A stretch of 64,000 nucleotides of DNA from Gilvimarinus sp. 2_MG-2023 (GTDB lineage Bacteria; Pseudomonadota; Gammaproteobacteria; Pseudomonadales; Cellvibrionaceae), in contig NZ_JAUOQM010000047.1 in the NCBI RefSeq assembly GCF_030547685.1, positions 1 through 64,000 on the forward strand, in the 5' to 3' direction. Shown one piece after another: positions 2,081-3,111 of this stretch; the stretch's first letter is position 1; every line of letters starts with the position of its first letter. The position numbers and the translations under genes were made by a program. The notes under the pieces were generated by a model. That model had not been told where the DNA came from and made no database searches. It saw only the letters and a program-made list of their open reading frames with translations.

Positions 2081-2095
2081 CGATAATAATTATCA
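2081..2095. promoter_or_regulatory. Fur box
   Basis: The bases CGATAAT-A-ATTATCA form the 7-1-7 inverted repeat of a Fur site with one mismatch to TGATAATnATTATCA. It lies 47 bp before the ATG at 2142, in the divergent region between the DUF2066 gene and the small sigma-like ORF, so iron-dependent repression of the rightward genes is likely. Confidence 0.75.
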
Positions 2096-2141
2096 TTTGC
2101 GTTAATGTTGTTTTCTCTTACCACCAAGGCGCGACTGACCC

Positions 2142-2366
2142 ATGGATGCTCTAGCTGTGCAATTGCGACATTACGAACCCAAATTACAGAAGTATCTAAC
2201 CCAGCGCTTTGGCTCGGTGCCACTAGCTCGCAAAGTCACCACCGAGACGCTCAACTCCATGCAAAACAGCGAGGTGTTGCCTTGCATTGGCAATCCTTAT
2301 GAATACATTACCGGTTACGCCGTTTCTTTGGCCATTCGCTATGCAAAACACAATAACCCAAACTAA
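2142..2366 (+). CDS. Short sigma-factor region-2-like ORF
   Basis: This 74-residue ORF follows the Fur box. Its sequence resembles the N-terminal region 2 of FecI-type ECF sigma factors: a helix LRHYEPKLQKYLTQRFGS, then a TETL segment in the place of the usual QDTF motif, then NPYEYITGYAVSLAIRYAKH matching the conserved xPxxYLxxIAxxLxxD helix. Region 4 (the -35 binding helix-turn-helix) is absent, and the next ORF, overlapping by about 26 bp, is an unrelated methyltransferase-like protein. It may be a remnant, an anti-sigma-like decoy or a small regulator. An AAGG about 13 nt upstream is a poor ribosome site. Confidence 0.5.
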   Translation: MDALAVQLRHYEPKLQKYLTQRFGSVPLARKVTTETLNSMQNSEVLPCIGNPYEYITGYAVSLAIRYAKHNNPN

Positions 2367-3111
2367 GCTTCCCGCCGACTTCACCTCCGCCCTGTACAGC
2401 CATGCCATGGCCGACCACCTGTGGCCCGAGTTGCGACTTTACGATAAGGCGGCGCGCGAGCTGTGGGAGCGCCTGCCGACAAGCACTCACCGAGTGCGCG
2501 CCCAGAAAACGCAAATTACCCGCAGCCTTTGGTACGACCAGCGCTGCCTAGAGTTTATCCGGCGCCACCCGAGCGCAACCTTTATTGCCCTTGAGGCCGG
2601 GTTGAACACACGGTTTCATCGCTTGAGCCAACAAGCCGAGTGGCCACGCTTTCAGTGGTGGGAGTTAGACCGGCCAGAACGGGCGGCCTGCAAGCAGCGA
2701 TTACTGCCCAGAGTGGACAATTACCGCATCGAACCACTCTGCCCCAGAGATATAGCCGGGCAACTGCAAGCCATTTTATACACCCAAGCCCGGCCAGTGA
2801 TGATTATCTGTGAAGCGGCCAATAGCCATTTTACCCAACCTCAGTGGTACAACTTGCTTAGTGCCCTGAAGCCTGCAACAACCTGCCAACCGATTGAACT
2901 GATTTTTGACTGCCCAAACCGAATATTTTTTCCATTCGGGCGCCGGCGGGCACTCACAGGCTCAATGACGCTACCTGCCCATGCTCGCGTACTGCGCCAG
3001 GACACTCTGCAACAGCCCTTGGCATCTTTAATGACCGGGCGGCAGCAGGGCTGGCATTTATCACTTGCCTCGGGGAGAGGCCGCAGACACGACACTAGTT
3101 CGCTCACTTGA
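2341..3111 (+). CDS. Leucine carboxyl methyltransferase-like protein
   Basis: The 256-residue product resembles class I SAM-dependent methyltransferases of the LCMT/TcmP family. It has the early R-S-x-x-YD motif, a glycine motif ALEAGLNTRFHRL where the family has LGaGLDTRfyRL, WWELDRPE matching the acidic strand-2 motif (E/D-x-D-x-P-E), and an ICEA segment in the place of the catalytic-loop EG. The Asp-to-Asn change in the SAM motif and the loss of EGxxxYL are departures from consensus, so activity is uncertain. I start at the ATG at 2341. An ATG at 2299 and a TTG at 2287 are alternatives. It overlaps the small sigma-like ORF and shares its Fur-controlled promoter, hinting at an iron-limitation role. 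Confidence 0.6.
   Translation: MQNTITQTKLPADFTSALYSHAMADHLWPELRLYDKAARELWERLPTSTHRVRAQKTQITRSLWYDQRCLEFIRRHPSATFIALEAGLNTRFHRLSQQAEWPRFQWWELDRPERAACKQRLLPRVDNYRIEPLCPRDIAGQLQAILYTQARPVMIICEAANSHFTQPQWYNLLSALKPATTCQPIELIFDCPNRIFFPFGRRRALTGSMTLPAHARVLRQDTLQQPLASLMTGRQQGWHLSLASGRGRRHDTSSLT

Follow-up and report, generated by a model that had tools for sequence, protein, structure and literature searches.

The 64,000-nucleotide stretch of contig NZ_JAUOQM010000047.1 analysed here (the window), from the 3.76-Mb genome of Gilvimarinus sp. 2_MG-2023 (family Cellvibrionaceae; G000 in the comparisons below), carries, as read from its letters, an operon-like arrangement of two genes behind a Fur box, one coding for an ECF sigma region 2 domain that stands alone, the other for a divergent LCMT-like methyltransferase. 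The small sigma-region-2-like protein of 74 residues is encoded on the plus strand at positions 2142-2366, with an ATG start that is backed by the homologue METLALHLRHYEPKL. The LCMT-like class I methyltransferase of 256 residues, which contains the subfamily motif G[LFIV][SN]TRF, is encoded on the same strand at 2341-3111 in a frame that is open from a TTG at 2287. The two reading frames overlap by 26 bases on the plus strand (2341-2366), confirming the overlap between a 74-codon ORF and a methyltransferase-like ORF described in the first-pass annotation, and they overlap or touch in the five other Gilvimarinus carriers as well, which suggests that translation of the small ORF and the methyltransferase may be coupled. 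The pair is flanked on the left by hda and a DUF2066 gene, both on the minus strand, and on the right by purM and purN, which were named from their sequences, followed by a DUF3108 gene, in agreement with its earlier placement between the hda and purMN blocks. Since six of the eight genus genomes have the small ORF, the box and a next gene that overlaps or nearly touches the ORF, the layout is more than chance, and the anatomy of the locus is given with high confidence. Past the end of hda, the window opens with a degenerate tandem repeat of 7, 14 or 21 bases (CGTTCCG / CGTTCTG) at positions 1-69.

A putative promoter on the plus strand at 2079-2107 consists of TTCGAT (2079-2084), 17 bases and TTAATG (2102-2107), with the Fur box in between. 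The box (2082-2100, assigned to neither strand) scores 16/19 on the minus strand against GATAATGATAATCATTATC and has one mismatch to the 7-1-7 sequence TGATAATNATTATCA, both of which we take to be Fur consensus sequences, so the one-mismatch 7-1-7 box reported earlier ahead of the 74-codon ORF is confirmed. GATAATAATTATCATT at 2082-2097 is the sole match without mismatch to GATAATNATTATCATT in the window, all 15 fixed positions being exact. When up to three mismatches are allowed, GATAATNATTATCATT has six matches in the window against 1.02 expected from shuffles, and one of 100 shuffles also reached six. A consensus promoter scan did not list the TTCGAT/TTAATG pair; its yield, a single different pair, did not exceed that of shuffles. 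The promoter-like stretch TATTCGATAATAATTATCATTAGCGTTA is nearly identical across the six genus carriers, and in all six the box with these conserved flanks lies 30-41 bases ahead of the small ORF. A Fur box is thus present at the promoter, as in members of the Fur regulon.

Across the whole genome, GATAATNATTATCATT with up to two mismatches gives 16 matches and its reversed control gives 11, so that most of the weak ones are noise; two matches are exact, the window site among them. The surroundings of nine other genomic sites were read, and two are clearly iron-linked: a single-mismatch site that separates fumarase C from a PepSY/DUF2271 operon and a two-mismatch site at a TonB-dependent receptor. 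The second exact site and the remaining sites among these nine have no clear iron link by eye. The box between fumarase C and the PepSY-DUF2271 operon (G000:C5:155391, L189) is likely a shared operator. On the window's own contig, a one-mismatch box-like site (G000:C4:88459, L188) sits in a 3-kb stretch where no ORF reaches 70 residues, perhaps a region of an RNA gene.

All 11 carriers of the small ORF have a box scoring at least 14/19 in the 300 bp upstream of it. A box scoring at least 13/19, a threshold picked after seeing the data, lies within 400 bp of the enzyme at 24 of the 26 strong family methyltransferase loci; the weakest are those of G058 (13/19, 9 of 200 shuffles) and G005 (14/19, 6 of 200 shuffles), the shuffles keeping only single-base composition. 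In the other two loci the box is farther up, ahead of a DUF6607 gene (G012) or a TonB-receptor fragment (G064). A box of 16/19 is also present in G002, where the methyltransferase occurs without the small ORF. The pair is probably controlled by Fur, a prediction that these boxes support.

The small protein appears to be a relative of sigma region 2, and this reading is persuasive because sequence, register and fold agree. The resemblance to region 2 of FecI-type ECF sigma factors, already claimed in the first-pass annotation, is borne out by hhalign, an AlphaFold model, Foldseek and VIA structure comparison. Pfam Sigma70_r2 never matched the small protein, and a Pfam scan of four small proteins returned no sigma model, so the sigma link rests on these more sensitive comparisons. 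NCBIfam searches with ten small proteins gave sub-threshold sigma models for six (best E 0.004-0.12), nothing for three and an unrelated model for one; none of the libraries searched names the small sigma-2-like family. The hhalign alignment of 11 small proteins with nine ECF-like sigma factors of the genome itself, taken from 13 Sigma70_r2 proteins that were found independently of the small proteins, has a score of 26.2, a P value of 0.0013 and a probability of only 18%, but it is in register with region 2 and collinear over 63 columns, and the best of 100 column shuffles and the reversed profile scored 15.6 and 11.7, respectively. The probability against three FecI-type sigma factors is 95%, a value that is not independent because those three were found by the small-protein profile. 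The AlphaFold model has three helices with a mean pLDDT of 88.5. Sigma factors, initiation complexes and PhyR account for all of the first 20 Foldseek matches, at E-values that are weak (best 0.27). The VIA comparison gives Z 11.2 to SigG1 over 74 residues, and its first 24 matches are sigma, initiation-complex or PhyR chains at Z 8.0-11.2, below the 13 advised for helical bundles, for which such Z is reachable by chance; some unrelated chains reach Z 5-7. A PDB sequence search with six small proteins had a bacterioferritin-associated ferredoxin as its sole match (E 1, 25 residues), which was taken as chance.

The small proteins are 73-90 residues long, and all 11 end just after region 2 and lack region 4. 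The earlier statement that a lone region 2 is unable to bind a -35 element is right, yet split sigma factors and sigma mimics exist (PMC8103513, in excerpt). In five of five reference FecI-type sigma factors, region 2.2 reads [ED][DE]xxQ[ED] and helix 2.3/2.4 reads N...[ND]. The Asp of region 2.2 is gone in 11 of 11 small proteins, with a basic residue in nine, and the Gln is gone in ten; the Asn of region 2.3/2.4 and the last Asn/Asp are both lost in all 11, and the Glu after the Gln is retained in all 11. The beta' clamp is contacted by regions 2.1 and 2.2, an area that anti-sigma factors hold too (PMC7406223, in excerpt), and changes in regions 2.1 and 2.2 of PvdS reduced core binding (PMC4256889, in excerpt). 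From the residues lost, we infer that core binding has probably been lost in the small protein, and we read it as a putative stand-alone mimic of sigma region 2 in which sigma factor function is gone. The residues and the model together display one of the features by which PhyR-type mimicry is recognised, a sigma-like fold with altered promoter and core contacts.

The small sigma-2-like family is narrow in distribution. Its profile matches 15 of 144 family genomes, and 11 of these matches are short ORFs, six in Gilvimarinus (six of eight genomes) and five in Cellvibrio (genus g2). The remaining four matches lie in longer frames and were left out of the carrier count; three of them are read as FecI-type sigma factors, with FecR-like and receptor-like neighbours by eye, and the fourth is in G032. 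Among 390 order genomes searched at E 1e-5, with at most 14 candidates scored per genome and many family carriers outside the draw, only G000 itself matched. The codon comparisons show purifying selection on the small ORF: dN is 0.256 and dS 1.124 between G000 and G005 (dN/dS about 0.23), 0.285 and 1.994 between G004 and G007, and 0.187 and 1.984 between G074 and G083, dS being saturated or not computable in several pairs. The frame of the small ORF is open in 11 of 11 carriers. The first-pass annotation had called the ORF a remnant and left open whether the pair is an iron-starvation module or a decaying one. The terms remnant and decaying do not hold for an ORF with this dN/dS that is kept in two genera, and decay of the pair is likewise opposed by dN below dS, open frames, presence in two genera and the conserved boxes. 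The iron-starvation alternative is favoured in the form of predicted Fur control.

The pair recurs in relatives, as the synteny survey found for six Gilvimarinus genomes and also for Cellvibrio. In G000 and G005 it lies between DUF2066 and purM, and in G004 it lies after obgE-proB and before mannosyl-3-phosphoglycerate phosphatase-like and glucosyl-3-phosphoglycerate synthase-like genes; G003, G007 and G001 have, by lengths alone, the same run of ORFs as the G004 locus. The two contexts indicate that the pair with its promoter region occupies two chromosomal sites in Gilvimarinus. Between G000 and G005 the small proteins are 65-68% identical and the enzymes 41%, and between G004 and G007 the order is reversed (enzyme 75%, small protein 61%). 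G006 is without both genes. In Cellvibrio G074 and G075, the small protein, the methyltransferase, a TPR/DUF2753-like protein and a ferritin-like protein are encoded in a row, divergent from tonB-exbB-exbD-like genes, tonB and exbBD having been named by eye. These loci (L076 of G075 and L077 of G074), with the ferritin-like protein (domain checked in L077) and several Fur boxes, look like a compact iron cluster. In G083 the small protein is followed by a ferritin-like gene, and that genome has no methyltransferase match at 1e-6. In G070 a large receptor-like ORF is divergent, by eye. The ferritin-like gene was rejected as a member of the Gilvimarinus module, the query finding only a distant ferritin (28-30% identity) in eight of eight genomes.

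The second gene passes the Pfam LCM model (PF04072) with 31.5-31.6 bits against a cut-off of 22.3, and the model of its product (pLDDT 82.4) has a PPM1/LCMT1-like fold, with PPM1 (E 2.9e-9) and LCMT1 as the best structural matches, so the earlier identification as an LCMT-like gene stands. The SAM loop is EAGLNT, with Asn at the Asp of GxGxD (ATFIALEAGLNTRF), where LCMT1 has GAGMDT, and the substitution reported earlier is therefore real. The Asp of GAGMDT is replaced by Ser or Asn in 26 of 26 strong members, the interrupted one of G064 included, and since this extends across the whole subfamily, the Asn is not a sign of decay or damage in the window copy. In the window genome and G005, Glu or Arg stands in place of the first Gly of GxG, and this position holds a residue other than Gly in 10 of the 26 members, eight beyond these two, indicating that it is a loose position in the subfamily; the G007 enzyme has a GAG loop. 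It is possible, judging from the loop residues, that SAM binding has been lost in the clade of the window. In the clade with the DUF2066-purM setting (2341-3111 compared with L046), the enzyme diverges faster than the small protein and the first SAM-loop Gly is lost, and the enzyme may be turning into a pseudoenzyme.

The methyltransferase subfamily is found in seven of eight genus genomes and, at 1e-6, in 31 of 144 family genomes. Five of these 31 matches (E 3e-12 to 8.5e-7) were excluded, leaving 26 strong members, 16 of which had seeded the profile. A stop inside the match was counted for G002, G065 and G064; an open frame of about 250 residues covers the enzyme in G002 and G065, and that of G064 is interrupted. 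Among 369 class genomes there are eight methyltransferase matches including G000, none of the other seven being stronger than E 3e-19. Of the 26 strong methyltransferase genomes, 16 (G002 and 15 others, one of them with a broken enzyme) lack the small protein. At nine of these 16 loci (G033, G018, G012, G163, G164, G060, G159, G058 and G150) a protein of 149-183 residues adjoins the methyltransferase, and it had no Pfam match in the three loci tested (L052, L053 and L055). This neighbour (L052:6679-7191, L053:5496-5945, L055:6213-6686, L134, L135 and L139-L142) may be distantly related to the DUF2753/TPR-like protein found in genus g2. At L133:3946-5165 of G064 (genus g2), a Fur box, a C-terminal TonB-receptor fragment (PF00593) and the stop-interrupted methyltransferase make up a decayed version of the locus. 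In G001, a P-loop ORF that is zeta-toxin-like by eye (L050:5256-5897) is convergent with the methyltransferase.

Comparison with known systems places the pair near several of them without a full match. The small protein is collinear with region 2 of FecI-type ECF sigma factors and has the predicted fold of ECF sigma-2 domains, but it has no region 4, its region 2.2 and 2.3/2.4 residues are replaced, and no fecR-like ORF was seen beside the pair, where some of the neighbours were profiled. T4 gp55, which works as a late sigma factor, is likewise a sigma-2-like protein, and its complex (7d7c) matches the small-protein model at Z 6.5, whereas the residue changes of the small protein argue against a sigma role. 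RsoA, the partner of SigO, is also a free-standing sigma-2 protein (PMC8103513, in excerpt), but here there is no region-4 partner next door, the neighbour is a methyltransferase and the core-binding residues are replaced. The sigma-like domain of PhyR, which acts in a partner switch (PMC8999054, in excerpt), has a sigma fold in which the promoter and polymerase contact regions are altered (PMC8103513, in excerpt), and PhyR chains are among the structural matches of the small protein. In contrast to PhyR, all 11 small proteins consist of sigma-2 only, without a receiver domain, and a Fur box stands in place of the phosphorelay. The enzyme resembles LCMT1, PPM1 and bacterial LCM-domain methyltransferases in its Pfam match and structure and differs from them in the Ser/Asn of the SAM loop and in the first Gly, replaced in 10 of 26 members. 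LusM of the lusichelin metallophore cluster is an LCM-domain protein in a metal-uptake setting and the nearest functional lead for the enzyme, but it sits in an NRPS/PKS cluster, and the available part of the source mentions no sigma-like partner (PMC12210259). A literature search on Fur-regulated LCMT, stand-alone sigma-2 decoys and LCMT with siderophores, with subscription journals thinly covered, returned no title or opening of an abstract that describes the pair.

The pair looks like a working unit rather than a broken gene. A tentative explanation, with somewhat less than an even chance of being correct, is that it is a Fur-controlled module in which the small protein would be a sigma mimic and the enzyme would methylate an iron-linked carboxylate. 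When iron is plentiful, Fur would repress the pair, and upon iron starvation the small protein would be made as a mimic of sigma region 2. It would start no transcription, because the region 2.2 residues that hold core RNA polymerase and the region 2.3/2.4 residues near the -10 element are lost. The fold of regions 2.1 and 2.2, a face also bound by anti-sigma factors, would be kept, and it is on this ground that titration of a FecR-type anti-sigma factor or a similar regulator is proposed, by which iron-uptake signalling would become more sensitive under Fur control. The methyltransferase, made together with the small protein yet separable from it, would form a methyl ester on a carboxylate of some iron-linked protein or small molecule. 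The window genome has two FecI-FecR pairs as possible targets of the mimic. Since the core and anti-sigma surfaces overlap, however, anti-sigma binding may suffer from the region 2.2 changes as well. The contact of FpvR with FpvI, an iron-related ECF sigma factor, is probably made through region 4 (PMC4256889, in excerpt), and as this region is missing in the small protein, the FpvI-FpvR contact counts against mimicry towards FecR. A broader proposal, possible but on balance doubtful, is that the small proteins form a new family in which a free sigma-2 fold without polymerase and promoter contacts would be used in iron starvation only, by mimicry on FecR-type anti-sigma factors or as a methyltransferase subunit. 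Such a protein would tie Fur repression straight to signalling at the cell surface while not itself being a sigma factor.

It is less probable, and rather unlikely, that the small protein serves the methyltransferase as a partner subunit or as its substrate, the sigma-2 fold having been recruited to activate or stabilise the enzyme or to present its substrate. The small protein does adjoin the enzyme directly, with overlapping or touching frames in the genus and at different genomic sites, and where it is absent the enzyme has the other small neighbour of 149-183 residues in nine of 16 loci. The two genes can nevertheless be separated: G083 keeps an intact small protein under selection (dN 0.187 and dS 1.984 to G074) in a genome without a methyltransferase match at 1e-6, and 16 of 26 strong methyltransferase genomes do without the small protein, arguing against an obligate two-subunit enzyme. 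The uneven divergence between G000 and G005 also speaks against such a partnership. An operon of metallophore metabolism, in which the enzyme would methylate a siderophore or citrate-like carboxylate with the small protein as a minor helper, is again unlikely, and slightly more so. LusM is proposed to make a methyl ester of the metallophore lusichelin (PMC12210259, in excerpt), and some relatives adjoin receptor-like, tonB-exbBD-like or ferritin-like genes, but the ORFs in the first 7 kb of the window include none for biosynthesis.

Two readings retain a contact with RNA polymerase. The small protein might bind the polymerase clamp in a changed way and compete with sigma factors under iron starvation, as the kept fold of regions 2.1-2.2 and the Glu retained in 11 of 11 would allow; the basic residue in place of the Asp in nine of 11 and the loss of the Gln in ten make this quite improbable. 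Slightly lower still is the chance that the small protein supplies region 2 to a two-subunit sigma factor whose region-4 partner is encoded elsewhere in the genome, the way RsoA does with SigO in B. subtilis (PMC8103513, in excerpt). The core-binding and -10 positions are changed throughout the family, the neighbour is an enzyme with no region-4 partner adjacent in the window, and a genome scan with Sigma70_r4_2 gave 13 matches over the cut-off, nine in region-2 sigma factors and four in unclassified frames of 218-309 residues, with no short ORF of region 4 only. Lowest of all is the probability that the pair is a decaying relic. The Glu/Arg in place of the first Gly in the clade of the window and G005, the fast divergence of their enzymes to 41% identity, the interrupted methyltransferase of G064 and the loss of both genes in G006 would fit with decay. 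Against it, wherever dS could be computed, dN is clearly the lower of the two in both genes, the frames are open in six genus genomes, the Fur box is conserved and the first Gly is replaced in eight further members as well.

Known uses of the sigma-2 fold are PhyR mimicry, within a response regulator, and free sigma-2 proteins that act as working sigma halves. If the explanation of the pair as a Fur-controlled module with a sigma mimic is true, a free sigma-2 domain that is conserved downstream of a Fur box and has lost its sigma contacts would be a third use of the fold. It would also offer a simple route by which Fur could tune FecI-FecR signalling. The LCMT subfamily, with Fur boxes in several genera of the Cellvibrionaceae, is a concrete candidate for a hitherto undescribed methylation in iron starvation.
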